Assembly: GCA_903936705.1 (NCBI GenBank)
Contig: CAIZWN010000004.1
Span: 1-53,928, forward strand
DNA length: 53,928 nucleotides
From: an uncultured Myxococcales bacterium
Lineage (GTDB): Bacteria > Myxococcota_A > UBA9042 > DTJE01
Direction of reading: 5' to 3'
The notes under the pieces were generated by a model that was not told the origin of the DNA, did no database searches, and saw nothing but the letters and a program-made list of their open reading frames with translations. The position numbers and the translations under genes are program-made. Below are positions 2,219 to 17,947 of this stretch, in pieces. Every line of letters starts with the position of its first letter. Positions within the stretch are counted from its first letter, which is position 1.

Positions 2219-2313
2219 CTACGAGCTCCATTTTCAGCTGCCGGAGTATAGGTCCGTGTCTTGACGGCGGCAATGGAAAGTGTGCCGTAAGCCAGTCGGC
2301 GCACGCCGGCGGT

Positions 2314-2334
2314 CTTTCGCGTCAGAAGCGAAAG
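2314..2334. repeat. Perfect 7-bp inverted repeat in a divergent intergenic region
   Basis: CTTTCGC and GCGAAAG are separated by 7 nt in the region between the minus-strand epimerase and the plus-strand methyltransferase-like gene. It could be an operator or a small hairpin. There is no T-run after it. Confidence 0.35.
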
Positions 2335-2353
2335 TACAAGTCCGGGTCTTTCG

Positions 2354-2382
2354 TTGACCAGTTTCGTCGCTTCGCTTACCCT
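2354..2382 (+). promoter_or_regulatory. Possible sigma-70-type promoter
   Basis: TTGACC (2354-2359) and TACCCT (2377-2382) are separated by 17 bp, about 28 bp upstream of the start of the methyltransferase-like gene. The -35 matches 5 of 6 consensus positions and the -10 only 3 of 6, so this is tentative. Confidence 0.3.
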
Positions 2383-2409
2383 CGCGGACGGTTTCGAGGG
2401 AGATGATTG

Positions 2410-3261: not shown

Positions 3262-3270
3262 TGGGGCGTC

Positions 3271-4359
3271 CTACAGTCCAGCTACCCGCAGCATTGCACG
3301 TGCCACTGTCGCCGGGTCCAGGATCATGTTGGTGTAGGCTGCATTTGCCAGTGGGCAAGAACACTGACCGGCCCGCACGCTGGCCCTGAAGGCGTCGGCC
3401 TTCGCCCCAGCCCAGACCGCGGCAAAATCGTAGTCGTAGTCCCGCACGTTCCCAAGGGACTCGGCCCGGACGCAGCATCCCCAGACCTCGCCGTCAGGCG
3501 CAAGCTGAGCGCTGGCAAGACCGGCATAGCAGGGGATTATCTGGCGCTTCTGCTCCAGGGTGGCGGCAGCGAGATCGTAGTATTCCATGCGCAGGGCCTG
3601 GATCAATCGAGCCACCGGACGCTTCGCGCGGGAATGGCCTATTGCGCTCTTCAGCACGGCGGCAGCCCGCCTGTAGTCAGCCGGATCCGGAGTAATCTGG
3701 CGCTCGGTCGTCAGAAGTTCAACCCGTTGCTCGGCTACCTCGGTGACGTACGAGTCCGGCCGGAATATTTCTCGGATGGATGCCTGAATGTCGGGGATCC
3801 TGGCCACGTTGGCCCTGGAAACGACCGTGTGAACTCCCATCAGAACATGTGGATTATCCGGCTGCAAGGATCGGATCAGGTCTGCGACCTCAAGCAGTTT
3901 CCGCCAGTTGCCCTTGGCTCCGCGCAGCTTGTCGTGTTCGTCGCCTATCTCGTCAACCGACAGGTTCAGGATCAACTGCGACCCGCGCGACGCTTGCACC
4001 ACCTTGGGCAGCAGTTCACGTATGCGCGCCAGTGCCAGGCCATTCATCGGGATGTTGATGGCCGAAGGTTCCAGTTCGCGGCGGGTCAGGTCAACGATCT
4101 CGCCGAGGTCGGGTCGCAGGAACTGGTCGCCCCCCGAGAGGGTCGCCCACACCGGCACCTTGCGCAGGCTGCGGTAGGTCTTTTCCAGTTCGGCCAACGA
4201 CAGTTCGTCGGATTTTCGCTGCCAGATCCCGCACGTCCCGCAACGCGATCCGCATCTGTAGGTCACGGAAACGGTTAGGTTGATCGGCAACTGTACGCTG
4301 TGACCGGCAGCATGTTCCAACCGGTAGCCAGCCATCCGGAAAGGAATGGGAATCTTCAA
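3271..4359 (-). CDS. Radical SAM/SPASM domain protein
   Basis: This 362-residue protein has a radical SAM cluster motif near residues 36-43, CGSRCGTC, a CX3CX2C arrangement in the usual TYRC context. TLSGGDQFLRPDL matches the GGEP-type SAM-binding loop. The C-terminal part carries a second Cys set (IIPCYAG, EVWGCCVR, GQCSCPL), the pattern of a SPASM auxiliary Fe-S cluster. Such proteins perform radical chemistry on peptides, sugars or small molecules. The 10-bp gap to the following GT-C transferase start suggests co-transcription with it. The substrate is unknown; the glycan context is the only hint. Confidence 0.85.
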   Translation of the reverse strand: MKIPIPFRMAGYRLEHAAGHSVQLPINLTVSVTYRCGSRCGTCGIWQRKSDELSLAELEKTYRSLRKVPVWATLSGGDQFLRPDLGEIVDLTRRELEPSAINIPMNGLALARIRELLPKVVQASRGSQLILNLSVDEIGDEHDKLRGAKGNWRKLLEVADLIRSLQPDNPHVLMGVHTVVSRANVARIPDIQASIREIFRPDSYVTEVAEQRVELLTTERQITPDPADYRRAAAVLKSAIGHSRAKRPVARLIQALRMEYYDLAAATLEQKRQIIPCYAGLASAQLAPDGEVWGCCVRAESLGNVRDYDYDFAAVWAGAKADAFRASVRAGQCSCPLANAAYTNMILDPATVARAMLRVAGL

Positions 4360-4369
4360 CGAAACCTCC

Positions 4370-5857
4370 CTAGGGCGCCGAAGCTGCGGCGCGTATGGCC
4401 GACAGCCGTCCTCGCAGGTGCAGCAGCCATACGATGCATGCGACCGTGCAAGTCAACACCGTGAAGATGATGCGGCCAGCCGAGCCCAGAGGCAGCAGCA
4501 CCGAGCCATCAACGACAATCACCAGGGACGATGCCGCGAACAGCCATGCACGCCAGGCCGGGTTGGCAAGTTCGACCGACAGCACCAGGCATGGCAGCAG
4601 GTACCATGGGTGAAATACCGGGGTGCCAACCGTGACAATCAGCATCTGGATCATCGCCATCGATGCCACCAGGTTGCGAAAGTCCTTGGCGCGCCAGGCC
4701 AGCCAGGCAGCTGCGGCGACAAGCCCCAGCAGGATCGGCAGGTTGACCAGCCCCACGATCCGCATCCAGGCGGCCTTGTCCGCGTGAAACAGTTCGGTCG
4801 CCACGACATAGAACGGTTCGGCCAGCGTGTTGGTAGGTTCGCGGCCGGTTGGCAGCGTGAAAGGTTGCAGGATCGTCTGGGCGCCGTCCCACACCATGGA
4901 ATACGCAGCCACGACCACGCCGGCCATCACCAGCGATGCCAACGCGGCGTCGCCAAGCCGCCTTGCGGGCGAGCCGTTTCCAGGTCGCAGCAGATATATG
5001 GCGAACATCGCAGCCGGGACGGCCATGGTGAGTTTCGACGCAACAGCCAGACCCAGTAGTGCGGCAGCCGGGATGATCCTGCCGCGCGAGGCCGTCAGGA
5101 GCCAGGCGGCCAGCAGAAAGGCCGGGACCAGTTCGTTCGAAGCCTGGCCACCGCCTTCCAGCCAGACTATTGGGCTGAGTGCCATCAGTGCGAACATCGA
5201 CGTGGAAGAAGCCGAGGCATCGGGCCTCGAGCAGTAGCTGGCCATCAGGGCCACAAGCCCCATGGCCGTCAGTGCCGCGGCCACCTTCGTCAGGGCCAGT
5301 GCCATCGGCAGCGATCCCCCCGATAGCAGCACACCTGGCGACCACCAGGCCAGCTCGATCGGACCGTAGATGCACGGACCGTTCATCCATCGGCCATACA
5401 CGTCCGACGAGAACGACGAGGCTGCCATCCCCGGCCAAGGCATCGTGTACGGGTTCACGCCTGTCCCGAAAGCCAGATCAACATAGGTCATCATGCTGAA
5501 TATGTCGTCGGACATCATCGGAAGCATGGGCGCTGCCACAAGGGACAGCAGGAACGAGAACCTGGCAATCCTCCATATCTCGGAACGCGACTGGTTGCCT
5601 GATTCCCCGCAAGCAGCAACCGCCCGGCGCAAGGCGTACCACGAAACCACGATCGCCGCGATGAAGCAGGCGGCGACGGCGATATCGGCGCCCGCGGGCA
5701 TCCAGTTCGTCCCCAGGTTCAGTTTGCGTCCCGCCAGAAAGAATCGCACCCACGAAAGTACCGTCAATGTAGCTGCGGTACCTGCCATCATCCCGGCCCA
5801 GGGACGGAACCGCGGTATTGCCGGCCCCGCCGGATGTCTTGCGTCAATCATTGCCAT
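4370..5857 (-). CDS. GT-C family membrane glycosyltransferase (mannosyltransferase-like)
   Basis: This 495-residue protein has about a dozen hydrophobic segments and the layout of polyprenyl-phosphate-dependent GT-C enzymes. MMSDDIFSMMTYVDLAFG places acidic residues in the first extracytoplasmic loop, followed by GVNPYTMPW, as in actinobacterial and myxobacterial DUF2029/mannopyranosyltransferase-like proteins. HPWYLLPCLVL is the late PWY-type motif. It would transfer a sugar from a lipid carrier on the outer face of the inner membrane. GGGAG precedes ATG 5857; an in-frame ATG two codons on is also possible. It is the upstream partner of the radical SAM gene. The family is clear, the sugar and acceptor are not. 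Confidence 0.75.
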   Translation of the reverse strand: MAMIDARHPAGPAIPRFRPWAGMMAGTAATLTVLSWVRFFLAGRKLNLGTNWMPAGADIAVAACFIAAIVVSWYALRRAVAACGESGNQSRSEIWRIARFSFLLSLVAAPMLPMMSDDIFSMMTYVDLAFGTGVNPYTMPWPGMAASSFSSDVYGRWMNGPCIYGPIELAWWSPGVLLSGGSLPMALALTKVAAALTAMGLVALMASYCSRPDASASSTSMFALMALSPIVWLEGGGQASNELVPAFLLAAWLLTASRGRIIPAAALLGLAVASKLTMAVPAAMFAIYLLRPGNGSPARRLGDAALASLVMAGVVVAAYSMVWDGAQTILQPFTLPTGREPTNTLAEPFYVVATELFHADKAAWMRIVGLVNLPILLGLVAAAAWLAWRAKDFRNLVASMAMIQMLIVTVGTPVFHPWYLLPCLVLSVELANPAWRAWLFAASSLVIVVDGSVLLPLGSAGRIIFTVLTCTVACIVWLLHLRGRLSAIRAAASAP

Positions 5858-5956
5858 TCTGCTCCCTGACCTGCTCGACCGCCGAGTATCGAGGGCGCAC
5901 GTTGGAGAGTCAATGTCATGCAGGAATCGTGGCGGCGGCTGGCCTCCCGGATCCGG

Positions 5957-7813
5957 TCACCCATGCACCGGCAGCGAAACCGTGAACGTGCTGCCCTCGC
6001 CGATCTTCGAGGCGACCTCGATCTCGCCGTGGTACATGTCCACCAGGCGCTTGACCAGAGACAGGCCAAGACCCGTGCCCTCGGCGAACTGCTTGGCGTT
6101 TCCCGCGCGGTAGAACTCGTCAAAGACGTGGCCCAAGGCGTCCTCGCTGATCCCTATCCCCGAGTCGCGGCAGACCAGCCTGGCCCTGTTCTTGTCAGAC
6201 ACGAGAGTGACCGAAACAAGGCCCCCGTCGGGAGTGTACTTCACGGCGTTTTCGACCAGGTTGCCGACGATCTTGTCCAGATCCTCGGCATTTCCGGCAA
6301 CCGTGACTGCGGCCTCGGGGATCACCGTGTCGATCCTGACATGCTTTCGTTCGGCCTCGGACGATACCCTCTCCAGCACGCCTCGAACGACTCCGCACAA
6401 TTCAGCAGTCCCGGAAGCCCTTCCCGGTACACGTCCCTTCATGCTGCCCAGTTCCATCAGGTCCTTCAGCAGGTCCTGAAGGCCGGCCACGCGCCGCACC
6501 ATCCGCGCCACCAGCGATCGCTTGCGCTCGTCCATCTCGCCCAGGAATCCCTCCTCGAGGATGCTCAGGCTGGACCTCAGCGATGCCACCGGCGCCTTCA
6601 GTTCGTGCAGCACCAGGAACACGAACTTGGCCTTTGCCTCCTCCAGTTCCTCGAGGTGTCGGTACGCCCTGGCGTTCTCTATGGCCACTGCCCCTTGCGA
6701 GGCAATCGCCATCAGGAAACCTATGTCCTCGTCGTCGAATTCGCGTCGTTCGGCCGTGTAAAGGCGCAGCACGCCAATCGCGGTTCCTCGCAGCAGCATG
6801 GGAGCCACCACCACCGAACGGATTCCCTCGCGCAGGACCTCCTCGGGATACTGGAAGGCAGTCGCGTCGCTGACATCGGGCACCTGAACCGACCAGCCCA
6901 GCAGCGCGGACTGGTCCACCGGGCTTTTCGCCGGATCAACGTCACCTTTTTGCAGGTATGTGTCGCTGAGCCCATATGCCGCACTTAGACGCAGACGATT
7001 ACCTTCGTCGTCCAGCAGGCGAATAGAGCACGCCTTGCCATACATTGCGACGGTTGTTCTGGCGACCACGGTGTTCAGCACGTGCGAAAGATCCAGCGTC
7101 GAGTTCACCGCGCGTGCGATGTCGTAGAGCGTCTGTGTTCGATGGAAGGCCGCCTCGACCGAGTCTTTCAGCCGCATAAGTTCGACCGTTCGCGCCCACA
7201 GCCGTCGCGCGATCGACCCTGCCAGGTGCGTGGCGAAAAGTATGGCCGTAGCGAAAAACAGCAGTCGCAGCCCGATCTGCCTTATGTCGTCATGCGGCAT
7301 CCCGTCGAAACCAGGCATAGGGCGGTGCGGCAGCAGGCCGGCCCCCTCGATTGCTGCCAGCAGGCCGACCAGCAGAACGCCGAAGCTGGCGTGCAGGTAG
7401 GCGGGGCGCGGCGGCAGCAGGATGCTTGCCAGAATGGCGTGAAACACGAAGAAGAACAGCAGCGGGCTGGTGATGCCACCCGTCAGGTGCACCAGGACGA
7501 TAAGGGCCACCCAGTCGGTAAGGAACTGCGCGCTTGCGAATCGGCCCCAAACTACCGTCGTTGATTCAAGGGTCTTCAGGTGCCGCAGGATGCGCCGAAA
7601 CAGCAGGTTGTATGCCAGGATTCCCACGCCCACTGCGCAGAAGGCAATCCCCGGCACAGGCAGGTCCGCCAGAAGCCACAGGACAAGGGTCCCGACGAAC
7701 ACCCCCGCACCGGCAAGCCAGCGCAGGCGGATAAGCCAGGCGCCGCGCTTTGCAAGTTCCTCCTCGAGGGGGGCCTGGGTCACGGGTCCAGGCCTATCGC
7801 GTTCGATGGCCAT
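5957..7813 (-). CDS. Six-TM GAF sensor histidine kinase with RegB-like motif
   Basis: This 618-residue kinase starts at ATG 7813, one base after the stop of the upstream kinase, with GGAGGGTG before it. An open extension to 8074 overlaps that gene and is rejected. Residues about 28-205 make six membrane segments. LTGGITSPLLFF near residues 110-121 resembles the GGxxNPF quinone-binding motif of RegB/PrrB, with Asn replaced by Ser. A GAF domain spans about 225-385. The phosphoacceptor His403 is in VLHELKAP, and the ATPase domain has NLVENAVKY, DSGIGI and GTGLGLSL. All catalytic boxes are intact. It is the last gene of the hydrogenase/Hdr/two-component operon. Redox sensing is an inference from the motif and context. 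Confidence 0.85.
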   Translation of the reverse strand: MAIERDRPGPVTQAPLEEELAKRGAWLIRLRWLAGAGVFVGTLVLWLLADLPVPGIAFCAVGVGILAYNLLFRRILRHLKTLESTTVVWGRFASAQFLTDWVALIVLVHLTGGITSPLLFFFVFHAILASILLPPRPAYLHASFGVLLVGLLAAIEGAGLLPHRPMPGFDGMPHDDIRQIGLRLLFFATAILFATHLAGSIARRLWARTVELMRLKDSVEAAFHRTQTLYDIARAVNSTLDLSHVLNTVVARTTVAMYGKACSIRLLDDEGNRLRLSAAYGLSDTYLQKGDVDPAKSPVDQSALLGWSVQVPDVSDATAFQYPEEVLREGIRSVVVAPMLLRGTAIGVLRLYTAERREFDDEDIGFLMAIASQGAVAIENARAYRHLEELEEAKAKFVFLVLHELKAPVASLRSSLSILEEGFLGEMDERKRSLVARMVRRVAGLQDLLKDLMELGSMKGRVPGRASGTAELCGVVRGVLERVSSEAERKHVRIDTVIPEAAVTVAGNAEDLDKIVGNLVENAVKYTPDGGLVSVTLVSDKNRARLVCRDSGIGISEDALGHVFDEFYRAGNAKQFAEGTGLGLSLVKRLVDMYHGEIEVASKIGEGSTFTVSLPVHG

Positions 7814-7814
7814 G

Positions 7815-9821
7815 TCACCCTCCTGGCAAATCGAAAACGAACATTGCCCACTGGTTCTCGCGCGTTTCGGCCCTGATTTGTCCGCCGTGCCGTTCGATGA
7901 TCTGGCGTGTGATGAACAGGCCCAGGCCAGTGCCCCGCTTTGCTCGCAGTTCGGCCACGTCCAGGCGGCTGAACTTCCTGAACAGTTTTTCGATGTCGGC
8001 CGGGCGGAAACCGCGCCCTTCGTTCTGGACGCGGAAGCGTTGTACGCCACTGGGCAGTTCCTCGTGCCAGACACGAATGGTGCTGTAGTGGCGCCCGTAC
8101 TTCACGGCATTGGACAGGAGGTTGTCCATCACGATCCGCAGAAGGTCGCGGTCGCCCTTCACCATGACATCCTCGGGCACGTCGATCGCAACGAACATGC
8201 CGGTCGCGTAGACTTGCCGGGACACCTGCTCCATGGTCGGGTCCAGAACCTCCTTGCGGAAGGACAGCGACCGCGGTTCGAACCGCAGTTCGTTCTTCTC
8301 GATTCGCGAAAGGTTCAGGTAGTTCAGAATCATCTCGTTCAGGTACTCGAGGTTGCGTTCGACCGCATCCAGCACGCGCGCCTGTTCGCCATTCGGCTGG
8401 CCGATCAGCCCCTCCTTCAGCGATCCGACCCCGAACAGGCAGGATGCCAGCGGAGACTTCAGTTCATGTGTCACGAACTCCAGCATGTCCATGTAGTTCT
8501 GATTCAGCTGTTTCAGGTTGGCATTCGATGACTGGAGGGCGGCGTTCGAACGCACCAGCGCTTCGCTTTCCCGATCGAGGTTGTCGGCCATCTGGTTGAA
8601 GGCGTGGTTCAGCGTGTGCAGATCCTTGAACACGCCGCCACTGGTTGGGACCCGTGCATTCAGGTCCAGCGCCGCCATGCGCATGGCCGCATCCGTCAGG
8701 CGGCGTATCGGTCGCGACAGCCACAGCGCCATCGCCAGTCCGAACAGCAAGGCAATCAACATCCCTGCTGCCGTCAGCCAGACGAACGACTGGATCAGCC
8801 GCGTCCGGTACCCCAGGAATTTCGCCTCGAGGATGCCCACGTACAGGATTCCGACGACCTTCCCGTCCAGATCCCTCAGCGGATCGTACGCGCTGAGGTA
8901 CCAGTCGTTCACCACGAACGCGCGGTCGCGGTAAGGTTTCCCGTCGGCCAGTACGACATCCTCCACTGCGCGAGACACGCGGGTTCCGATCGCCCGCATT
9001 CCGTCCTCACCAAGAACGTTGGTGGCGATTCGAACGTCGCGCATGAAGATTGTCGCGGTGCCCAGAGGACGGCCGTCAAACGTCTCGTTTCGAAAGACCG
9101 TGTCTCGTATGGCGTCGGGAATCGACCAGTTCCGGTTCAGGAGAATGCCTCCGACGACCATTCCCAGTGGCCTTCCGGCATCGTCAGACACGGTCTCAGC
9201 GGCCTCGATCATCAGGCCGTCCGATTCCAGGCGTTCCACTGTTGACGAGGCCATGGGCGTCGGTCTTACTTCGATTGTGGCCCTCTCCAGCAACTCGGCG
9301 CCGTCCGCAGCCAGGACCGTCGCTGGCAGGCGAACCGTTCCTGCAGCCGAACCGGTCAGCACGGCGTCCCGTCGCACGGGGTCCATCAGAGCGATATCTC
9401 CGTTCGTGTAGGGTGCGCGCGTCCGCATCACCGTGCGCCCGTCGTTGCCGACCAGGGTCAGCGTGTCCATGCCGGCGCGGTTCCGTATGGCCTCGAGCCT
9501 GCGTCGCAGGTCATCGACTTCCCCTCCGCTGGCCTGTCCGGACAGGACGTCCTGCGACCGTCTGAGGATCGACACGAATCTGGTGGTGTGACGAACGTTT
9601 TCCAGTTGCTGATCGTACAGTGCCCAGGCGGAATGCAGGTCCTGTTCGACGCGCCGTTGCGCCTCGCCTATAACGGCGTCCGAGGTCAAAGTATAGCCCA
9701 GAAGTACCGACACAGCGCCGCCCGCAAGCACCATCAGCGCGAACGCACCAAAGATGGTCCAGCGGATGCTGAGCAAGGGCCGCCGGCCCTCCGGGCGGTC
9801 GATGTCGGTCGACGCGCGCAC
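7815..9821 (-). CDS. Cache-HAMP sensor histidine kinase
   Basis: This 668-residue membrane kinase begins at GTG 9821, preceded by GAGGAG. A first membrane segment (about 22-45) is followed by some 290 extracytoplasmic residues with double-Cache features (DTLTLVGNDGRTVMRTR, then GKVVGILYVGILEAKFL just before the second TM). A HAMP domain with LSRPIRRLTDAA comes next. The phosphoacceptor His near residue 450 is in FVTHELKSPLAS. The ATPase domain carries NLLSNAVKYG and GTGLGLF; its G1 box reads NEGRGF, with Asn in place of the usual Asp. It probably binds a small extracellular ligand. It sits 20 bp after the response regulator gene in the same operon and is the likely kinase partner for it, alone or with the GAF kinase. 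Confidence 0.88.
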   Translation of the reverse strand: MRASTDIDRPEGRRPLLSIRWTIFGAFALMVLAGGAVSVLLGYTLTSDAVIGEAQRRVEQDLHSAWALYDQQLENVRHTTRFVSILRRSQDVLSGQASGGEVDDLRRRLEAIRNRAGMDTLTLVGNDGRTVMRTRAPYTNGDIALMDPVRRDAVLTGSAAGTVRLPATVLAADGAELLERATIEVRPTPMASSTVERLESDGLMIEAAETVSDDAGRPLGMVVGGILLNRNWSIPDAIRDTVFRNETFDGRPLGTATIFMRDVRIATNVLGEDGMRAIGTRVSRAVEDVVLADGKPYRDRAFVVNDWYLSAYDPLRDLDGKVVGILYVGILEAKFLGYRTRLIQSFVWLTAAGMLIALLFGLAMALWLSRPIRRLTDAAMRMAALDLNARVPTSGGVFKDLHTLNHAFNQMADNLDRESEALVRSNAALQSSNANLKQLNQNYMDMLEFVTHELKSPLASCLFGVGSLKEGLIGQPNGEQARVLDAVERNLEYLNEMILNYLNLSRIEKNELRFEPRSLSFRKEVLDPTMEQVSRQVYATGMFVAIDVPEDVMVKGDRDLLRIVMDNLLSNAVKYGRHYSTIRVWHEELPSGVQRFRVQNEGRGFRPADIEKLFRKFSRLDVAELRAKRGTGLGLFITRQIIERHGGQIRAETRENQWAMFVFDLPGG

Positions 9822-9841
9822 GGCAGCCTCCTCGCAGGTCT

Positions 9842-10252
9842 CTACCTGTGCAGAAGTTCCGCGATCTTCTCAAGCAGAAGGCGCGGCTTTACTGGCTTCT
9901 CCATGAACGCGTCGATCGGCAGCAGGCGGCTTCCCGCGTCCCCCGAAAACTTCATGCGTGTCTGCTGCTGAATGGACGTCATCATCAGGATCGAGACGTT
10001 TTCGTATTTCTTGTTCTGCGGGAAAAGTTCGAAGTTGCGCAGCTGGTTTACCACGCGGAAGCCCGCTACCAGGTCCTCCATCATCACGTCCAGGATGATC
10101 AAGTCCGGGGTGATGTTATCGATGATGTCCAGGGCCTCGGTAGCGCTGCTGGCCGATGCGAACTCGTAGCCGGCAGCCTCCAGCACCGACCGGACAATGT
10201 CCACAAGGTCGGTGTCGTCGTCCACCATGAAGATTCGCGCCTTCTTGTCCAT
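9842..10252 (-). CDS. Single-domain response regulator (REC only)
   Basis: This 136-residue protein is a CheY-like receiver domain with no output domain. The acidic pocket is DDD at residues 11-13 and the phosphoacceptor is Asp55 in LIILDVMMED. MMTS supplies the conserved Thr/Ser, and FMEKPV the conserved Lys. There is an insertion of about 15 residues between the beta4 region and the Lys (around RMKFSGDAGS). ATG 10252 is chosen for the strong GAGGAGGGAA ahead of it. It lies 11 bp after the degenerate kinase gene and 20 bp before the Cache kinase. With no DNA-binding domain, it must act by protein contact or pass phosphate on. Confidence 0.9.
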   Translation of the reverse strand: MDKKARIFMVDDDTDLVDIVRSVLEAAGYEFASASSATEALDIIDNITPDLIILDVMMEDLVAGFRVVNQLRNFELFPQNKKYENVSILMMTSIQQQTRMKFSGDAGSRLLPIDAFMEKPVKPRLLLEKIAELLHR

Positions 10253-10263
10253 GGGTTCCCTCC

Positions 10264-11007
10264 TCACGTTCCGGTCGTCGCCAACGGCAATCGAAGATCC
10301 GCACGGGTGCCTCGCCCCGGCCATGGGGCCAGTTGCAGATCCCCACCGATATACCGGGCCGCGGCCCGGCAGAACAGCATCGTGTAACCACGGCCCAGCT
10401 GGAGCCCGGCCCCGGTTTGTCGGAACTTGTCGAACACGGTGTCCAGCAGTTCGGCATCAGACTCGACACCCTCGGATTCGATCACCAGCACCAATTCGGG
10501 TACCGGGCCAGTCCCCTCGATCCGCACGGTGGTCTGTACCAGCCCTCCCGTGCGCGTGCAATCGACCAGAACACCATACAGACGTTCCAGGATGCGACCT
10601 ACCAGGGGGCTTCCTGCCCGGGGGCCCGGCAGGTCATCCACGAAGTCGAAGGCCGTGCGGATGCGTCGGCGCGAGGCGTCGTCGGCAACCCTGGTGGACA
10701 GGCGCTCGAACATTGCGCCGGGATCAAGGGGCTCGGATTCCAGTTGGTGCGAGGAATCCTCCATTCGGGTCAAATCCCTGAAATCGTCGATGAGGGATAC
10801 GAGGTGCTGGCAGTTTCGCTCGGCCTTCTCCAGCCACTTGTCCTGCCCTGGTGTTACGGCGCCCTCGATGCCGTCGCGCAAGGCATCCAGGCACATGATC
10901 ACGGTGGACAGGCCGCCCTTGAAGTCGTGGAAGAAGTGGTTGATCAATCGGTATTCCGGAGTGGTAACGCCGTCGATAGATGGATCGTCGGGGGCTGGCC
11001 GCCTCAC
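10264..11007 (-). CDS. Histidine-kinase-like protein with degenerate ATPase domain (ChpT-like layout)
   Basis: This 247-residue soluble protein has a dimerisation/phosphotransfer helix with His27 in FFHDFKGGLSTVIMCLDAL, followed by an ATPase-like domain that lacks key boxes. The N box position reads LYGVLVDCTRTGG without the conserved Asn, and the G1 box reads ESEGVES rather than DxGxG. A TGAGLQLG stretch and GRGTRADLRLPL at the end preserve the fold. A DHp domain with a degenerate catalytic domain is the architecture of the alphaproteobacterial phosphotransferase ChpT. GTG 11007 overlaps the TGA of the hydrogenase protease gene, so the two are translationally coupled; GGAGGA precedes it. The phosphotransfer role is inference. 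Confidence 0.75.
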   Translation of the reverse strand: MRRPAPDDPSIDGVTTPEYRLINHFFHDFKGGLSTVIMCLDALRDGIEGAVTPGQDKWLEKAERNCQHLVSLIDDFRDLTRMEDSSHQLESEPLDPGAMFERLSTRVADDASRRRIRTAFDFVDDLPGPRAGSPLVGRILERLYGVLVDCTRTGGLVQTTVRIEGTGPVPELVLVIESEGVESDAELLDTVFDKFRQTGAGLQLGRGYTMLFCRAAARYIGGDLQLAPWPGRGTRADLRLPLATTGT

Positions 11008-11489
11008 GCGATTCCTCCACTGGAAACGGCGCCCAGATCGGCGACAATTTCCGCGATGATGGCGGGCAACCTCGCCGTCAGGGATGCCGACAGCGTATCG
11101 TTGAAAGACGTCGCGTCGGTGACGCCTATCCCGTAGAACCTCAAATCCGGGGGAAGCGCTTCGCCCAGGTGGTTGGCCAGCGCAAAAGTCTCGAGGATTC
11201 CCGCGTGGTGCGACGACAGCCAGCCATCCGGGGGTGCCACGACCTGGGGCAGAAGAACCCTTGCCACCTCACCCTCCCGAAGACGTCCGTCGGCAACGCA
11301 ATCGATAACGACGCCGCGATCATAGCGCGGAGGACCCGAGAAGGCACCAAGAAGGTCGAGGGCGCTGCCGTCAAATGGCATCCATTCGGCACCCCGACCG
11401 CACGCGCAGGCAACGGCCTCGGCAACTGCCGGCCCGACGCCGTCGTCCCCGCGAATCGTGCTGCCTACCCCGACCACCAGCGTGCGCAT
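11004..11489 (-). CDS. Hydrogenase maturation protease (HycI/HyaD/HoxW family)
   Basis: This 161-residue protein belongs to the family of endopeptidases that remove the C-terminal peptide of the [NiFe] hydrogenase large subunit after nickel insertion. The N-terminus LVVGVGSTIRGDDGVGPAVA contains the GxGNxxxxDDGxG-type motif with Ser in place of Asn, and its Asp residues include the expected Ni-sensing acid. VVIDCVADG carries the second acidic site and SSHHAGI the conserved His region. ATG 11489 gives a 7-nt spacing to GGAGG; ATG 11492 is next to it. It follows mvhA by 34 bp, and that subunit retains a cleavable 25-residue tail. Confidence 0.9.
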   Translation of the reverse strand: MRTLVVGVGSTIRGDDGVGPAVAEAVACACGRGAEWMPFDGSALDLLGAFSGPPRYDRGVVIDCVADGRLREGEVARVLLPQVVAPPDGWLSSHHAGILETFALANHLGEALPPDLRFYGIGVTDATSFNDTLSASLTARLPAIIAEIVADLGAVSSGGIA

Positions 11490-11525
11490 CATAAAACCTC
11501 CGCGCGGCGATGACCGGGACGGCGG

Positions 11526-12989
11526 TCAGCGGACGACGCTGCGCACGACCACGCCACGTGCATCGCGGACCCGGACCTCCATAGGCATCTCGCCGGGCAG
11601 GGAATGCGTTGCGCAGCCGAAGCAAGGATCATACGCCCTGAACGCCATCTCGATCATGTTCAGCACGCCTTCCGTTACCTCGATACCCGGCTTGATCAGC
11701 CCCTTGGCGGCGTCACGGATGGACATGCAGATTGCGGCGTTGTTGTTGCCGGTTGCCACCAGCATGTTGCACCGGGTCACCATGCCGTTCTCGTCGGTCG
11801 CATAGTGGTGGAACAGCGTCCCGCGTGGCGCCTCGATGACGCCAACGCCCTCGCGCGGGGTGGCCGTCGGGATCGTGCGGACGTTCGGTGACGTGGTTTC
11901 CGGGTCGTTGATCAGTTCCAAACTGCGTTCCGCCGCATACATCAGTTCGATGACGCGTGCCCAGTGGTTTGCCAGCGTTGCGTGCACCGGCCCCTTTCCA
12001 AGCACCGAGAAGAACTTTTCGAACGCCTGTTGCGCCACGGGTGTCGCCATCCCGGTTGCGACGTTCAGTCGGGCCAGGGGAGCCACCCGGTACACTCCGC
12101 TGTCCTTGCCCGTCCGCAATCCCTTCCAGCCGACCGCCTTCAGGTACGGGAACTTCAGGTACGACCAGGGCTCGACGTGCTCGCCGATGTGGTCCAGGTA
12201 TTTCGTAGGGTCGAACTTGACGAACTCGTTCCCGTCCTCGTCGATGACCCGCAGTTGCCCGTCGTAGAAGTTGACGAAGCCCTTGTCGTCCACCATGCCC
12301 ATGTAATAGGTCTTCATTGTGTAAGGGCCGTTGACGATCAGGTCTACGTATGCGCTGTTGGCCAGCACCACGTCGTCGAACAGCTTCAGCGTGAACTTTC
12401 CGAACTCGACCAGCTCCTCACAGTGCTTGCGGATCTCGGCGATCTCCTCGGGTTTCGTGATCGCCTTGCTCATGCCTCCCGGTAGGCCGCACACCGCGTG
12501 GGTGGCCTTGCCGCCGATGATGGCCTGAATCCGCTGGGCCTTGGCCCGCGACGCTATGACAGCGCCGCCTATCTCCAGGCCGACCTTGGCGACAACGCCC
12601 AGAACGTGTCGCGTGGTCGGGTCCGATTGCGGACCGCACACAAAGTCGGGTGCCGCCAGCGCGTAGAAGTGAGCGATGTGGCTGTGGACGAAGTGCGCAT
12701 TCAGGAACAGCTCGCGCAGCTTCTTCCCGCCCGGTGGCGGCTGGACTCCGTACACGCCGTCACATGCCTTGGAGGCTGCCATGTGGTGCGGGCCAGGACA
12801 CACGCCGCAGGCGCGCTGCGTGATTCGCGGCAGTTCCTCGACCGGGCGGCCCTCGCAGAATTTTTCGATGCCGCGCAGCTCGGGAACCTGGAAGTAGACG
12901 TTCTCCACCTCGCCGGCGTCGTTCAGGAAGATGTCGAACTTTCCGTGGCCTTCCAGGCGGGTGATCGGGTCAACGGTGATGGTCTGCAT
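11526..12989 (-). CDS. mvhA: [NiFe] hydrogenase large subunit, group 3c (MvhA-type)
   Basis: This 487-residue protein is the catalytic subunit that binds the Ni-Fe(CN)2CO centre. The N-terminus VDPITRLEGHGK is diagnostic. The L1 ligands Cys61 and Cys64 are in RACGVCPGPHH, and the L2 ligands Cys456 and Cys459 in DPCFGCATH. After His462 there is a 25-residue C-terminal peptide that would be cut by the protease encoded next. The sequence style fits the F420-non-reducing/Hdr-linked hydrogenases. ATG 12989 is preceded by AAGGAG. It is separated from the small subunit gene by 93 bp containing two hairpins. It oxidises H2 and passes electrons through MvhG and MvhD to HdrA. Confidence 0.93.
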   Translation of the reverse strand: MQTITVDPITRLEGHGKFDIFLNDAGEVENVYFQVPELRGIEKFCEGRPVEELPRITQRACGVCPGPHHMAASKACDGVYGVQPPPGGKKLRELFLNAHFVHSHIAHFYALAAPDFVCGPQSDPTTRHVLGVVAKVGLEIGGAVIASRAKAQRIQAIIGGKATHAVCGLPGGMSKAITKPEEIAEIRKHCEELVEFGKFTLKLFDDVVLANSAYVDLIVNGPYTMKTYYMGMVDDKGFVNFYDGQLRVIDEDGNEFVKFDPTKYLDHIGEHVEPWSYLKFPYLKAVGWKGLRTGKDSGVYRVAPLARLNVATGMATPVAQQAFEKFFSVLGKGPVHATLANHWARVIELMYAAERSLELINDPETTSPNVRTIPTATPREGVGVIEAPRGTLFHHYATDENGMVTRCNMLVATGNNNAAICMSIRDAAKGLIKPGIEVTEGVLNMIEMAFRAYDPCFGCATHSLPGEMPMEVRVRDARGVVVRSVVR

Positions 12990-13082
12990 CGCCTTCTCCT
13001 TGGGTTGCCCGCTACTTTGTGTCGGGCCCCGGCGTCGGGCGAGGCCCTCACTCCTTCGACCCCGTGTCCGGGGCAGGGTCAG
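12990..13082 (-). repeat. Intra-operon spacer with two stem-loops between small and large hydrogenase subunits
   Basis: The 93-bp spacer contains GGGCC (13024-13028) pairing with GGCCC (13043-13047), and CCCCG (13060-13064) pairing with CGGGG (13069-13073) across a 4-nt loop. Neither is followed by a T-run in the direction of transcription. They could affect mRNA processing or subunit ratio; that is a guess. Confidence 0.4.
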
Positions 13083-14066
13083 TCAGTGCTCTCGCTGCGC
13101 GCGCCGCAGCATCGACACCGGCAGCGTGAACCGGTAGAACGTCCCCAGCGGGTCGACCAACTGGTCGCCCTTTGTCCGGGCCGCCTGCTCGTCAGAGGCG
13201 TCCACGATCGACGTCATCGCGGCCAGCGCGTCGGCCCCCGCGTCCAGGCTCCTGGGCATCGGCCCGTAGCATCCGCGGCACGGCATGTTCACGGCGGGAC
13301 AAAGGGATCCGCACCCCCCGCGCGTCGCCGACCCCATGCAGGTCAGGCCTTGCTCCAGCAGGCACTTCTCGGCATCCACGAAGATCTCCTGGGGCCGGTG
13401 GAATGCCTGGATTTTCGGCTTGTCGGACTTGGTGCGCAGGCACTCGTCGCACACCGCCTTGTCTCCCGCAATAGTCGACCCGACAGGCGGCAGGTTGCCG
13501 GTGGCGATGGCGTTCACCGCGACCATGACCGTGTCCGGCGTCGGGGGGCAGCCGGGCACGTAGTATTCGACCGGGATCACCTGGTTCAGCGAGTAGACGT
13601 CATCAAAAAAATCGGGGATGTGCAGGTCGCCTTCGGGTACCTTCGTGTGCGTCTGCGGGGTCGTGCCCTCCGGGTTCACGGTTGACGCCGTGTACCCGTA
13701 GACGGCTTCGAAGATCGTCTTCTTGCAGTGAAGGTTCGCCAGTCCCGGGATGCCGCCGAACGAGGCGCACGACCCGAAGGCGACCATCACCTTGCACTTG
13801 CGCCGCAGCAGGCGCGCCAGGTGCAACTGCTCGCTGTTGCGTACTGCCCCGTTGAACAGGCAGACATCGATTTCGCCGTCCGCCCACGACTCGACGTCCT
13901 TGTACTTATAGTCCATCGCGATGGGCCACAAGCGGATGTCCGCCACAGCCGCTATGTCCAGGATCTTTTCGTTCACGTCCAGGACGGCCATGTCGCAGCC
14001 ACCGCACGATGCGGCCCAGTACATCGCCAGTTGCAGCTTTTTTCCGTTCTTTTTTTCTTCGCCCAT
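13083..14066 (-). CDS. mvhG: [NiFe] hydrogenase small subunit, group 3c (MvhG-type)
   Basis: This 327-residue electron-transfer subunit carries Fe-S clusters between the NiFe site and MvhD. The proximal cluster ligands are in SCGGCDMAVLD near the N-terminus, in FGSCASFGGIPG and in VPGCPPTPDT. The C-terminal part adds a Cys-rich ferredoxin-like set (CDECLRTK, TCMGSATRGGCGSLCP, NMPCRGCYGP). There is no Tat signal, which fits a cytoplasmic enzyme. ATG 14066 is chosen because GGGGTGA precedes it; the ATG at 14081 has no ribosome site and overlaps mvhD. It is 4 bp downstream of mvhD. Confidence 0.92.
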   Translation of the reverse strand: MGEEKKNGKKLQLAMYWAASCGGCDMAVLDVNEKILDIAAVADIRLWPIAMDYKYKDVESWADGEIDVCLFNGAVRNSEQLHLARLLRRKCKVMVAFGSCASFGGIPGLANLHCKKTIFEAVYGYTASTVNPEGTTPQTHTKVPEGDLHIPDFFDDVYSLNQVIPVEYYVPGCPPTPDTVMVAVNAIATGNLPPVGSTIAGDKAVCDECLRTKSDKPKIQAFHRPQEIFVDAEKCLLEQGLTCMGSATRGGCGSLCPAVNMPCRGCYGPMPRSLDAGADALAAMTSIVDASDEQAARTKGDQLVDPLGTFYRFTLPVSMLRRAQREH

Positions 14067-14070
14067 GGCA

Positions 14071-14520
14071 TCACCCCGCATGCTCGGGAAGAGGACCGAC
14101 TGCCGCGCGCCGCCTCCAGTCCAGCGCCCCCAGCGCCCGGACCTGGGCGGTCATCTCGTTGACCACGCGGACGAACACGTCGCCCTCGGCGGCCGAGATC
14201 CACTCCAGCCTCAGGCGCTGCGGCTCGATCCCGAACTGCGCGACCATCTTTTCAAGCGCCGGGAATCGCCGCATGGCCTTGAGGTTGCCGTTGATGTAGT
14301 GGCAGTCGCCCGGGTGGCAGCCCGCCACCAGCACCCCGTCGGCTCCGTCCTGGAAGGCCCGCAGGACGAACGAAGGGTCCACGCGACCGCTGCACATCAC
14401 CCTTACCAGGCGCACGTTCGGGGCGTACTTCATGCGGCTGGTGCCGGCGAGGTCGGCGCCCGCGTACGTGCACCAGTTGCAACACAGAACCACGATCCTG
14501 GGCTCGAATGGAGTCGACAT
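14071..14520 (-). CDS. mvhD: Methyl-viologen-reducing hydrogenase delta subunit (MvhD/FlpD)
   Basis: This 149-residue protein is the small [2Fe-2S] adaptor that moves electrons from the hydrogenase to HdrA. Its five-plus cysteines are placed as in the family: LCCNWCTYAGAD at the start, VMCSGRVDP in the middle and AGCHPGDCHYINGN after it. The length is close to the usual 130-150 residues. It lies 3 bp after hdrA and 4 bp before mvhG, so the three are translated as a unit. Its presence marks the hydrogenase as Hdr-linked rather than NAD-linked. Confidence 0.93.
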   Translation of the reverse strand: MSTPFEPRIVVLCCNWCTYAGADLAGTSRMKYAPNVRLVRVMCSGRVDPSFVLRAFQDGADGVLVAGCHPGDCHYINGNLKAMRRFPALEKMVAQFGIEPQRLRLEWISAAEGDVFVRVVNEMTAQVRALGALDWRRRAAVGPLPEHAG

Positions 14521-14523
14521 TGT

Positions 14524-16488
14524 TTACTCCCACGCGAAAGCGGCGTCGATCTGCGCCAGCACCTGGAGGTCGTTGAAATGGTGTCCCGTGATGGCGCTGG
14601 ACGGGCATGTCGCAACGCAGGTTCCGCAGCCCTTGCACACGCTGGCATTGACCTCGGCCAGGTGCGTATCGTCGTGGAACGAGATCGCGCTGTACGGGCA
14701 GACGTCCTGGCACACCTTGCAGCCGCTGCAGAAGTCCTTCAGAACCTCGGCCGTCGCGGCTTCCACCTCGACCATCCCGCGCGAAATCATGGAAAGGGCG
14801 GTCGATGCCGCGGCCGCGCCGTGCGCGACGGTGTCCGGGATGTCCTTGGGGCTCTGGCACGACCCAGCGAGGTAAACGCCGTCTGTCGCTGTTGCAAACG
14901 GCTCCAGCTTCGGGTGTTTTTCCATGAAGAAGCCGTCCGGGCTGCGGCCCATGCCGAACAGCCTGGCGACCGCCTCGGCGTCGTTCTGCGGCGCAACCGC
15001 CGAAGCCAGGATCACCATGTCGACCGGCACGCGCAGCACCTGGCCCAGCGTCGTCGATTCGGCGCTGACGACCAGTTTGCCTGTCTCCTCGTCGCCGTAC
15101 GCCTGGTCTGTGACATAGGCCGCCTTGCCCCGGATGAACTTGACGCCCTCGTGCAGCAGGCGGTTGTAGAACTCCTCGTAGCCCTTACCAAAGCAGCGCA
15201 TGTCGATGTAGAAGTTGTAGACGGTCGCGTGCGTCTTTTCCTTGATCAGGTGGGCGAATTTCAGCGAGTACATGCAGCAGACGCGGCTGCAGTATTCCTT
15301 GTGGTTCCTGTCTCGGCTGCCAACGCAATGCAGGATCGCCACCGACTTTGGCTCGCTGCCGTCCTTGCAGGTGATCCGTCCGCCAGTTGGGCCGGTCGCG
15401 TTGTTCAGACGCTCGAACTCCAGGCCAGTCAGGACGTTCGGGAACCTGCCGTAGCCCCACTGGCCAAGGCCGTGCGGGTCGATCAGGCCCATGCCGGTCG
15501 CCACTATGATCGCGCCGACCTTCTCCTCGACCACGCGGTCCTGGTCGTCCCAGCGGATGGCCTTGGGTTCGCAGAAGATCTCGCAGATCTTGCACTTGCC
15601 GTTCTTGAAATACGTGCACGATTCCTTGTCGATAACCGGCCTGCCAGGCACGGCCTGCGGGAACGACCGGTAGATGGCTTTGCGTGTGGCCATCCCCTCG
15701 TCGAACTCCGACGGCACCTTCTTCGGGCATTTCTCCAGGCATACGCCGCACGACGTGCAGGTGGACTCGTCGACGTAGCGCGCGCGCTGCCGGATCTTCA
15801 CTGTGAAGTTGCCCACGTAGCCATCGACATTCTCGACGTCGCTGTAAGTCATCAACTCGATATTCGGGTGCTGAGCTACCTGCACCATTTTCGGCGTCAG
15901 GATGCAGGCGCTGCAGTCCAGGGTCGGGAAGGTCTTGTCCAGTTGCGCCATGTGCCCGCCGATCGACTGGGAGCGCTCGACCATGATGACCTTTGTTCCT
16001 GCGTTGGCGATGTCCAGGGCAGCCTGGATGCCGGCCACACCGCCGCCAACCACCAGAACCTTCGGTGTCACCGGCACCATGCGGGCTTGCAGCGGCTCCA
16101 GCAGGCGTGCCTTGGCGACCGCGGCGCGCACGATGTCGATCGCCTTCAAGGTGGCGGCCAGTTTGTCCTCGTGGACCCAGGAACAGTGTTCGCGGATGTT
16201 CGCCATCTCGAACAAATACGGGTTCAGGCCGGCCATCGCGCACGCCTTCCTGAAGGTCGGTTCGTGCATGCGCGGCGAGCAGGCGGCCACTACAACACGA
16301 GTCAGTTTGTGCCGAATGATTGCGTCGTTCAGCAGGTGCTGGCCCGGGTCCGAGCACATGAATTTGTACTCGGTCGAGAATACGACGTCGGGCCAGGCAG
16401 CGGCGGCCTCTACCACCCTGTTCACGTCCACGACGCCCGCAATGTTGGTGCCACAGTGGCAGACGAAAACGCCGATCCGAGGTTCCAT
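14524..16488 (-). CDS. hdrA: Heterodisulfide reductase subunit A (HdrA), electron-bifurcating flavoprotein
   Basis: This 654-residue protein holds the FAD that splits electron pairs between ferredoxin and the disulfide branch. It begins with the HdrA-specific Cys region FVCHCGTNIAGVVDV. VLVVGGGVAGIQAALDIA is the Rossmann FAD loop. An inserted ferredoxin has CTSCGVCLEKCP, with CKICEIFCEP nearby. SRVCCMYSLK lies in the thioredoxin-reductase-like part. A C-terminal pair of [4Fe-4S] motifs reads CSGCKVCQDVCP and CKGCGTCVATCP. ATG 16488 is set by GTAGGAGGGATC just upstream; a longer frame to 16569 overlaps the preceding gene and lacks such a site. It sits 22 bp after the HdrCB-type gene and 3 bp before mvhD. 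Confidence 0.93.
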   Translation of the reverse strand: MEPRIGVFVCHCGTNIAGVVDVNRVVEAAAAWPDVVFSTEYKFMCSDPGQHLLNDAIIRHKLTRVVVAACSPRMHEPTFRKACAMAGLNPYLFEMANIREHCSWVHEDKLAATLKAIDIVRAAVAKARLLEPLQARMVPVTPKVLVVGGGVAGIQAALDIANAGTKVIMVERSQSIGGHMAQLDKTFPTLDCSACILTPKMVQVAQHPNIELMTYSDVENVDGYVGNFTVKIRQRARYVDESTCTSCGVCLEKCPKKVPSEFDEGMATRKAIYRSFPQAVPGRPVIDKESCTYFKNGKCKICEIFCEPKAIRWDDQDRVVEEKVGAIIVATGMGLIDPHGLGQWGYGRFPNVLTGLEFERLNNATGPTGGRITCKDGSEPKSVAILHCVGSRDRNHKEYCSRVCCMYSLKFAHLIKEKTHATVYNFYIDMRCFGKGYEEFYNRLLHEGVKFIRGKAAYVTDQAYGDEETGKLVVSAESTTLGQVLRVPVDMVILASAVAPQNDAEAVARLFGMGRSPDGFFMEKHPKLEPFATATDGVYLAGSCQSPKDIPDTVAHGAAAASTALSMISRGMVEVEAATAEVLKDFCSGCKVCQDVCPYSAISFHDDTHLAEVNASVCKGCGTCVATCPSSAITGHHFNDLQVLAQIDAAFAWE

Positions 16489-16510
16489 GATCCCTCCTAC
16501 GGAGAGAGCT

Positions 16511-17653
16511 TCAAAGTGCCTGCGCGACGATCTCGACCACGTCCGCGATCTGCATCTGGTCCAGTCCAAGCGCGGTTTTTGCGTCCTCGAACATGCTGAT
16601 GCAGTAGGGGCAGGCTGTGACCACCGTGTCGGCGCCCTTGGCGACGGCCTCTTTCAACTTCAGCACTGCGAACCTTTCATTGACGGGCGTTTCCATCCAC
16701 AGGCGGCCGCCCCCACCGCCGCAGCAGACGGCTTCGTCACGGGTGCGTGCGAACTCGATCAGTTGCAGTCCAGGCACTCCACGCAGTACATCCCGGGGTG
16801 CGTCGTAGATGTCGTTGTTGCGCCCCAGATAGCATGGGTCGTGGTAGATGGCCTTCACCGGTACCGCGGTCTTCATGGCCAGCCGACCCGATCGCACCAG
16901 GTCCCGCAGCAGTTCCACGAGATGGGTCACCTCCCACTTTCCACCCAGTTCCGGGTATTCCTTGCGGAACGTGTTCAGGCAGTGCGGGGATGGGACCAGC
17001 ATCTTTTTGACGCCCAGACCGTTCATCAGGTTGATGTTGTGGTCGGCCAGGCGCTGGAAACTGCTCTGGGCGCCAGTTTTGCGGACCGCGTCGCCGCAGC
17101 ACCACTCGCCCCCACCGACGAAACCGTAGGACACGCAGCCAGCGTCCATCACCTTGGCTGCCGCCCGGATCACTTTCGCATTCCGTGGGTCGTAGGCCTG
17201 TGTGCAGCAGGTGAAGTAGGCGTACTCGGGTGTGCCGTCGAAGGCGGGCACCGGGTCTGCGCCCGCCCAGGCCATGCGCGCGGACGGCTCGCCGGACCAG
17301 GGATTGCCGTTGGACTGGACGCTGCCGAGGACCGCTCGCAATGTCTTCGGCGCCGCGCCAGTCTCGGCGATCAGCATGCGGATCGTGCGGACCAGATCCA
17401 CTATTTCCACGCCTTGCGGACAGCGATCAACGCAGGCGTTGCAAGTGGCGCACATCCACAAATCTTCGCCTTCGTAGCCTTCGAGTCCCAGTTGCGCGCG
17501 TGTGATGATGTCGCGGACGCGAAAGTCGCGGACAAGGTTCCAAGGGCACGTTCCGCTGCACGTGCCGCACTGGTAGCAGAGGTCCAGGGTCTTTCCCCCT
17601 ACCTCCGCGATCATCTCGGGAACTTCCATCATTGGCGTAGCGAAGTGGCTCAT
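16511..17653 (-). CDS. Fused HdrC-HdrB-type (Fe-S) protein with CCG domains
   Basis: This 380-residue protein combines an N-terminal HdrC-like ferredoxin with a C-terminal HdrB/HdrD-like half. The ferredoxin motifs are CYQCGTCSGTCP (from residue 26) and CATCNACVDRCP (near 69). The C-terminal half has two CCG-type regions, with TCCTQ plus GGGEWCCG and then DPCYLGR plus AVCCGGGGGRL, and ends with ACPYCISMFEDA. It would be the disulfide-reducing (or other acceptor-reducing) arm next to HdrA. It is the first gene of the ten-gene minus-strand series; an FNR-like palindrome lies about 110 bp upstream. Whether the substrate is a true heterodisulfide is unknown. Glycolate-oxidase-type Fe-S proteins share this fold, but the hdrA-mvh context favours Hdr. 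Confidence 0.88.
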   Translation of the reverse strand: MSHFATPMMEVPEMIAEVGGKTLDLCYQCGTCSGTCPWNLVRDFRVRDIITRAQLGLEGYEGEDLWMCATCNACVDRCPQGVEIVDLVRTIRMLIAETGAAPKTLRAVLGSVQSNGNPWSGEPSARMAWAGADPVPAFDGTPEYAYFTCCTQAYDPRNAKVIRAAAKVMDAGCVSYGFVGGGEWCCGDAVRKTGAQSSFQRLADHNINLMNGLGVKKMLVPSPHCLNTFRKEYPELGGKWEVTHLVELLRDLVRSGRLAMKTAVPVKAIYHDPCYLGRNNDIYDAPRDVLRGVPGLQLIEFARTRDEAVCCGGGGGRLWMETPVNERFAVLKLKEAVAKGADTVVTACPYCISMFEDAKTALGLDQMQIADVVEIVAQAL

Positions 17654-17762
17654 GAAGCACCCATCTTGAAGGAAGGGCCTCCGCCGGGACTTCCCCCTTC
17701 GGATCTGGTCCGCGAACCGGGGGGAAGGGCCATCCGTCGTAAGTTCTCAAATCCCGCGAATA

Positions 17763-17776
17763 TTGATTAATGTCAA
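17763..17776. promoter_or_regulatory. FNR/CRP-family-like operator upstream of the hdr/hydrogenase operon
   Basis: TTGATTAATGTCAA matches the FNR consensus TTGAT-N4-ATCAA with one mismatch. It lies 110 bp upstream of the first gene of the minus-strand operon. Read on the minus strand it begins with TTGACA, so it could overlap a -35 element, but no good -10 stands 16-18 bp away. Control by an anaerobic FNR/Dnr/HcpR-type regulator is a reasonable inference. Confidence 0.5.
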
Positions 17777-17947
17777 CGTTATGCTTCGCCCCATGAGTGT
17801 GGCGGTACGCGGCACAAGGCAGGGTAAGGTGTTGCGGTTGCCGTGTCGTGAATACCAGGCAGAATAAGGCGATGAGCCCACTTGAAGTCCGCTATTGCCC
17901 GACAATGGCTGGGCTGGCAGATATCGGACGCAAAGACTCGTAGATGT

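Follow-up and report, generated by a model that had tools for sequence, protein, structure and literature searches.

A myxobacterial Hdr-Mvh hydrogenase operon that continues into a conserved set of signalling genes with a hydrogenase-associated receiver

We examined a window of 53,928 nucleotides (the whole stretch that was analysed, contig CAIZWN010000004.1 of assembly GCA_903936705.1) from an uncultured myxobacterium, and in particular ten minus-strand genes in which genes for an electron-bifurcating hydrogenase of the Hdr-Mvh type run on into genes for four signalling proteins: a soluble, degenerate histidine kinase (dHK), a single-domain receiver (REC), and two membrane kinases, one with a Cache sensor and one with a six-transmembrane region and a GAF domain (6TM-GAF). 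The ten-gene block is a conserved, co-inherited unit that stays together while its surroundings change, and its REC belongs to a receiver family that recurs beside both Hdr-Mvh [NiFe] and HydABC-type [FeFe] hydrogenases. We read the block as probably (at a rough probability of 0.6) a single operon for a predicted Hdr-Mvh complex and a dedicated signalling module, in which the two membrane kinases would signal to REC and REC would exchange phosphate with dHK. To our knowledge, little is settled about what makes anaerobes switch an electron-bifurcating hydrogenase on or off. With its recurring sensors, a receiver family that goes with bifurcating enzymes across phyla offers a concrete handle on their control: a conserved aspartate, a conserved histidine and three comparable operons in one genome. 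The pattern also argues for repeated recruitment of signalling to such enzymes.

Organization and conservation of the ten-gene operon

The host genome comprises 4.85 Mb in 84 contigs, and the best match to its MvhA among named genomes is 92% identical. The features of the operon, in the direction of transcription and with protein lengths in amino acids (aa), followed by the region upstream, are:

hdrCB, 16511..17653, minus strand: 380 aa, fused HdrC (4Fe-4S dicluster) and HdrB-like protein (CCG domains); Pfam CCG 2.3e-30 (two stretches), Fer4_8 3.6e-10
hdrA, 14524..16488, minus strand: FAD/4Fe-4S subunit, 654 aa; NCBIfam HdrA2 839 bits (cut-off 1100) and Pfam
mvhD (FlpD), 14071..14520, minus strand: 149 aa; Pfam FlpD 1.9e-55
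mvhG, 13083..14066, minus strand: small hydrogenase subunit, 327 aa; Oxidored_q6 1.5e-27, VhuG 230 bits (cut-off 450)
mvhA, 11526..12989, minus strand: [NiFe] large subunit, 487 aa; NiFeSe_Hases 4.6e-41, motifs ACGVCPGPHH and DPCFGCATH
maturation protease, 11004..11492, minus strand: 162 aa; NCBIfam hydrog_prot TIGR00072 75.9 bits (cut-off 47.45)
dHK, soluble kinase-like protein, 10264..11007, minus strand: 247 aa; HisKA 7e-7, HATPase_c 9.4e-8, 4 bp overlap with the protease gene
REC, single-domain receiver, 9842..10252, minus strand: 136 aa; Response_reg 1.7e-16
Cache kinase, 7815..9821, minus strand: 668 aa; sCache_3_3-HAMP-HisKA-HATPase_c (Pfam)
6TM-GAF kinase, 5957..7813, minus strand: 618 aa; 6TM_PilS 6.1e-7, GAF_2 3.9e-15, HisKA, HATPase_c 3.3e-27
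possible operon promoter region, 17654..17800, minus strand: TTGACA upstream of hdrCB, from an alignment of five genomes

All ten frames are open on the one strand (17653-5957) and each is assigned by Pfam or NCBIfam, although the protease has no Pfam match at 0.001; this bears out an earlier note on this DNA, which had named the same genes in the same order. The junction gaps, from the first gene onward, are 22, 3, 4, 93, 33, -4, 11, 20 and 1 bp with the starts of hdrA and the GAF kinase corrected to 16488 and 7813, in agreement with the tight spacing (mostly below 35 bp), the 93 bp gap between mvhG and mvhA, and the overlap of the protease and kinase genes described there. A GGAG-like stretch lies just before eight of the ten starts, the exceptions being hdrCB and mvhG, where it is not clear, and GTG is the start codon of dHK and of the Cache kinase. 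Ratios of nonsynonymous to synonymous substitution rates (dN/dS) are 0.10-0.18 against relative G002 (seven genes) and 0.11-0.35 against relative G011 (eight genes), with mvhD outside both comparisons; the pairwise values for dHK are 0.18 and 0.20. The compared operon genes are thus under purifying selection.

From its gene content, the enzyme is assigned to the HdrABC-MvhADG electron-bifurcating type, with a predicted group 3c [NiFe] hydrogenase. MvhD, MvhG, HdrA and HdrB/C are encoded together with MvhA, in which C61/C64 and C456/C459 are invariant among ten aligned sequences; these cysteines of the two CxxC motifs are presumably the nickel ligands. The NCBIfam matches to HdrA2, VhuD, VhuG and VhuA are all below their equivalog cut-offs, and for HdrA the final part of the model (positions 647-773) is matched instead by the separate MvhD. 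Compared with the known complex, the operon has all subunits, with HdrC and HdrB fused. The earlier description of the first gene as HdrCB-type stands insofar as both domains are present, with the refinement that they form one 380-aa protein, and orthologues of it (72-86% identity) occupy the same position in four related loci (L032-L035).

A search with MvhD in 89 genomes gave matches in 22 genomes at 42 places, and the regions around the better matches (20) were taken. The full ten-gene order is found in three loci (L032, L033 and L035). A fourth (L031) has nine of the ten genes, with the contig starting inside hdrA, and a fifth (L034, genome G007) has nine genes in order and the GAF kinase gene 3.3 kb further on, on the opposite strand. 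Because the gene order recurs in relatives, it reflects more than chance. In addition, none of 15 proteins from the window's flanks was matched beside the block in the five relatives (E 1e-5; the flanks available in the relatives span only a few kb), so the block is constant and its surroundings vary. We also looked for related genomes that carry the hydrogenase and signalling sets apart and found none, the GAF kinase of L034 being a partial exception. The claim that the signalling set is built into the hydrogenase operon is upheld by the order kept in relatives.

Among the other mvhDGA loci of the phylum, L048 is without such a set in the 5 kb available after mvhA, the protease gene of L037 is followed only by a truncated REC, and two contigs (L036 and L042) end about 1 kb past mvhA and are uninformative on the signalling set. 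The L037 frame (10230-10685) is cut short and lies right after the protease gene; it is perhaps a relic of a similar arrangement.

A receiver family beside two types of hydrogenase

The residues expected of a receiver, an acidic pocket, a phospho-accepting aspartate, a threonine or serine and a lysine, are all present in REC: D12, D13, D55, T92 and K119 are invariant in six orthologues, and S93 is kept next to T92. A profile built from 14 RECs (A4) was searched in 188 Myxococcota genomes; 29 places scored E 3.7e-29 or better, and behind them came a tail that includes longer regulators. Thirty loci were taken with at most 1.5 kb on each side, 14 from the top tier (L131-L144) and 16 from the lower tier (L145-L160), and genes for a hydrogenase, its protease, a NuoE/NuoF partner or an H-cluster kinase were counted as hydrogenase-operon genes. 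Such genes lay within 1.5 kb at 11 of the 14 top-tier loci (four of them the ten-gene operon itself) versus none of the 16 lower-tier loci. In larger regions around the 25 top-tier places outside the ten-gene operon, HydA or H-cluster-kinase genes were found at 19; a further locus (L170) has no more than the beginning of NuoE, where the contig stops, and another (L245) has NuoE, NuoF and a HydA-like fragment.

Two layouts recur around these receivers: REC-NuoE-NuoF-HydA, and NuoE-NuoF-HydA-kinase-REC-hybrid kinase. The kinase of the second layout carries a Fe-hydrogenase large-subunit domain (Pfam, L165), and at L163 HydA passes the NCBIfam cut-off for the NADH-dependent group A6. The host genome has both layouts, at L178 on contig C35 and L168 on C5, and all three of its REC places at 1e-22 are beside hydrogenase genes (22 of 75 candidates scored). 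The L165 kinase (6190-8232; Fe_hyd_lg_C, HisKA and HATPase), encoded in a [FeFe] operon that contains a family REC, has an 83% identical homologue beside the family REC of the L168 operon.

A tree of 65 receivers sets a group of 39 rows, made up of the hydrogenase-linked RECs and four unlinked ones, apart from 26 generic RECs (support 90/85, 88% of bootstraps), with many inner forks unresolved. For this tree, L143 was left out because it duplicates L179, and the REC at 8124 of L180 was counted as unlinked. REC is a member of a family shared by the two enzyme types, and the signalling set of the ten-gene operon is not one of a kind. The earlier note had presented a dedicated phosphorelay in such an operon as something new to its author; the set is there, and similar REC and kinase sets stand beside Hdr-Mvh and HydABC genes in several phyla.

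We also surveyed Mvh loci, taking the best 80 of 581 confirmed loci in named genomes, one of which (L051) lies on the same contig as L032. By script, a kinase or REC occurs in the Mvh directon at 19 of the 80, and at 15 after four were removed (L060, L064, L071 and L085), where a 179-234-aa HATPase protein adjoins a 608-610-aa, presumed NuoF-like gene, as judged by length and context rather than by Pfam. Eight of the 15 have a short single-domain REC (L051, L073, L079, L080, L084, L099, L100 and L123), four a longer regulator (L055, L067, L102 and L107) and three a kinase only (L076, L101 and L120). When A4 was searched in 42 of these loci's genomes, which had been picked for Mvh, 25 matched at 1e-25. 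Hydrogenase or Hdr genes were found in 12 of the 18 regions around these matches (L224, L226, L227, L228, L231, L232, L235-L239 and L241, the last being the L060 locus again), and L248, which is the L079 locus again, combines Hdr-Mvh genes with two RECs and a Cache kinase.

The presence of REC (15 rows), mapped on an MvhA tree of 89 rows, needs six changes, all of them forced by starred branches. These may be gains or losses, but the simplest reading is that REC was recruited repeatedly to Mvh loci. The tree was made by a quick method, includes one very long row (L053) and leaves out L051 and pieces below 350 aa; two loci whose REC falls beyond the scripted directon (L086 and L128) counted as REC-plus, and two with a REC near (L060 and L087) as REC-minus. 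At L128, from a WOR-3 metagenome-assembled genome, a fusion of a kinase-type ATPase and a FrhB/FdhB-like redox protein (470-2506) adjoins the family REC and hdrA.

Sensors, the degenerate kinase and the proposed route

Both membrane kinases carry the H, N and G boxes of two-component kinases and appear catalytically intact. The H, N and G2 boxes are kept in all six aligned Cache kinases, with a G1 box that reads NEGRGF rather than DxGxG. In the 6TM-GAF kinase, the boxes and a membrane motif, LTGGxxSP, are kept in all seven aligned sequences, the seventh being the kinase of L174. The quinone motif of RegB is GGXXNPF (PMC10525716). This RegB/PrrB motif was not found in the GAF kinase, which has GGxxSP in seven of seven sequences; because the two motifs only resemble each other, a quinone role is a guess. 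Pfam revealed no H2-sensing domain or sensor hydrogenase among the ten genes, and the sensing of H2, redox or the quinone pool proposed in the earlier note is a hypothesis.

The Cache sensor also recurs. Cache-HAMP kinases with sensors homologous to that of the window (28-36% identity over 391-414 residues) are encoded in Bdellovibrionota (L084), in Chloroflexota (L123) and in a Hdr-MvhD locus of Myxococcota (L041), and a sensor profile strongly matched L079 (Chloroflexota, on the other strand) and weakly L055 (2e-6). Across the 188 Myxococcota genomes, six matches at 1e-40 were detected in five genomes: four in the ten-gene operon, one at L041 and one on C8 of the host genome. Five of the six are in or beside Hdr or Hdr-Mvh genes and the sixth, on C8, adjoins NuoE/NuoF-like genes. 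At the C8 locus, where gene identities come from translations and tblastn and not from Pfam, an apparent fusion of a receiver to a NuoE-like protein (L193 8894-10045) lies between a Cache-kinase paralogue followed by an NtrC-like regulator and a NuoF gene. In G007, the Cache and GAF kinase genes flank one for a sigma-54-activator response regulator (L034 11163-12563), and the Cache kinase gene is convergent with it.

In dHK, H27 is invariant in six sequences and the GxG of the G2 box is kept; the N box is lost, with LVDCTR where active kinases have NAVKYT, and the DxGxG of the G1 box is gone. The term four-component phosphorelay, used in the earlier note, accordingly holds only as anatomy: two kinases have their catalytic boxes and dHK has lost those for ATP. 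An AlphaFold2 model from six sequences (mean pLDDT 82) has the RetS kinase region as its best neighbour in the PDB, then GacS; DivL is also among the neighbours, as are many ordinary kinases. Both RetS and DivL function as non-canonical kinases. Like the RetS/DivL pseudokinases and the ChpT/Spo0B phosphotransferases, dHK combines a kinase fold with a degenerate ATP site; it differs in keeping the phospho-acceptor histidine (compare DivL) and in having no accepted HPTransfase match. A conserved histidine with lost ATP-binding boxes is a ChpT-like trait. Membership of the ChpT type was rejected, since among three dHKs those of the window and L033 have no match to HPTransfase (PF10090) and that of L034 scores 14.7 bits, below the cut-off of 22.9. 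A search for dHK in the 188 genomes at 1e-18 gave six matches, four in the ten-gene operon and two weak ones (3e-21 and 5e-20) outside it. A plasmid search returned 128 records, all below 60% identity, with the five listed at 28%.

These features suggest the following route. The products of the first six genes would form the Hdr-Mvh complex and its protease, coupling H2 oxidation to the reduction of ferredoxin and a disulfide, and those of the last four would form a dedicated signalling module. The Cache kinase would bind a periplasmic ligand, the 6TM-GAF kinase might sense the state of the membrane or the quinone pool, and both would phosphorylate REC at D55. Lacking an output domain, REC could serve as a phosphate shuttle, and dHK could swap phosphate with it through H27 or, as a pseudokinase, hold the kinases back by binding them; the ultimate output would lie outside the operon. 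What the sequences show directly is the gene order, its conservation, the residues retained or lost and the association of receiver family and enzymes, which is strong; the phosphotransfer, the signals and the output are what we infer.

Several observations weigh against this interpretation. The Mvh directon is without a counted kinase or REC at 65 of the 80 surveyed loci, many of them cut by contig ends, so the enzyme can do without the module, and in this respect most Mvh loci are unlike the window, where the operon runs on into kinase and receiver genes. Six of the 18 regions around A4 matches in the Mvh genomes lack a clear hydrogenase gene (L225, L229, L230, L233, L234 and L240), as do four of the Myxococcota top-tier regions (L162, L179, L246 and L247); at L180, L243 and L244 the REC matched by the profile lies about 1-1.6 kb off the hydrogenase operon (some 1.5 kb at L180, some 1 kb at L243 and L244) and diverges from it, with another REC inside that operon. 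The boundary of the top tier was fixed after the list was seen, and because A4 was partly built from RECs chosen near Mvh, only the association with [FeFe] and other non-Mvh enzymes is independent. The GAF kinase gene of L034 no longer lies in the operon, and the genomes that provide the support are mostly metagenome assemblies. For dHK, the profile search places it among ordinary and hybrid kinases, and a ChpT-family match came from only one of three representatives, below the cut-off.

A possible alternative, to which we give clearly less weight, is ordinary two-component control, in which the kinases and REC would act through a DNA-binding regulator encoded elsewhere, and this regulator would set how strongly the operon is transcribed, as happens with other regulated hydrogenases. 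The sigma-54-activator gene of G007 and the NtrC-type regulator that follows the C8 Cache-kinase paralogue (read from its translation) would fit such a scheme. However, no output regulator, DNA-binding or enzymatic, was found by Pfam or NCBIfam among the ten genes. Sigma-54 control of the operon was also set aside, as no sites upstream of hdrCB exceeded shuffle expectation in four of five genomes and the result for G007 was marginal (0.05) in a search with the sigma-54 consensus.

More speculatively, the receiver family could be devoted to hydrogen and electron-bifurcating metabolism, a standard phospho-switch used on the unrelated [NiFe] Hdr-Mvh and [FeFe] HydABC enzymes with interchangeable sensors (Cache, 6TM-GAF, H-cluster-kinase and FrhB-kinase) and acting on the enzymes themselves; we regard this as unlikely. 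Still less probable is direct gating, in which phosphorylated REC, or a REC-dHK pair, would bind Hdr-Mvh and throttle bifurcation. It would suit a receiver that has no output domain, is encoded in the operon and recurs beside such enzymes, and the host genome has a REC of another type apparently fused to a NuoE-like subunit (L193). However, this REC family goes with enzymes whose subunits are unrelated (MvhADG-Hdr and HydABC-type); a docking surface common to all of them is unlikely, and the model is weakened. A chance neighbourhood, in which kinase genes came to lie behind the hydrogenase genes by insertion and were retained in one family, would fit the lack of a full set at L048 and L037 but is largely refuted, given an order kept across genera with none of the 15 flank proteins beside it, and given the recurrence of the REC family and the Cache sensor in other phyla.

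Regulatory sequences and related systems

Neither within the operon nor upstream of hdrCB did a consensus scan pick up a minus-strand sigma-70-like site, the sole match on that strand being at 5913, downstream of the last gene; minus-strand terminator-like matches at 7262 and 6234 both fall within the last gene, and the scan gave nothing on the operon strand at the protease/dHK junction. Counts of promoter and terminator matches were not above those in shuffled sequence, so the scan is weak evidence. In four genomes TTGACA lies 103-126 bases upstream of the hdrCB start or the homologous position, and G007 has TTGACT at 118 and 93 instead. This box, at which the scan called no promoter, may be part of a putative operon promoter.

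Regulators near such enzymes are already known. Near the hdr loci of Desulfobacterium autotrophicum HRM2, the legend to a figure marks genes for a response regulator and a histidine kinase, together with a CheY-like regulator and a putative regulatory protein (PMC2702500). These resemble the window's genes in their position; they differ in that the legend gives labels only, with no discussion there of family, conservation or mechanism. In Hydrogenedentota, kinase-fused group C [FeFe] hydrogenases are reported beside the bifurcating group A3 enzyme (BfuT) (PMC11406978), likewise signalling proteins beside a bifurcating hydrogenase. The window's operon differs in having no H-cluster sensor and a [NiFe] enzyme, and the main text of that source has no match for 'response reg'. 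A third source (PMC8163306) discusses a putative sensory hydrogenase whose gene, next to one for a kinase-like ATPase, lies upstream of that of a bifurcating enzyme, and a fourth (PMC5109826) notes kinases and response regulators beside tmc redox genes. Among the titles and abstract openings listed from the open-licence literature, we found no account of a receiver family common to two unrelated enzyme types, of the ten-gene unit, or of dHK.

Three further genes or clusters were noted near family receivers. On C5 of the host genome (L047, 106000-125000), a second Hdr-MvhD cluster lies some 5 kb past the REC that belongs to the [FeFe] hydrogenase-kinase-REC operon, with no MvhA or MvhG match in the 19 kb available. 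At L162, one of the regions without hydrogenase genes, a 1280-aa frame near the family REC (2560-6402) contains 163 cysteines and is a candidate multihaem cytochrome. In the [FeFe] operon of L165, a 1043-aa NuoF (1123-4254) has a C-terminal Fer4_20/Pyr_redox_2 part that is GltD-like.

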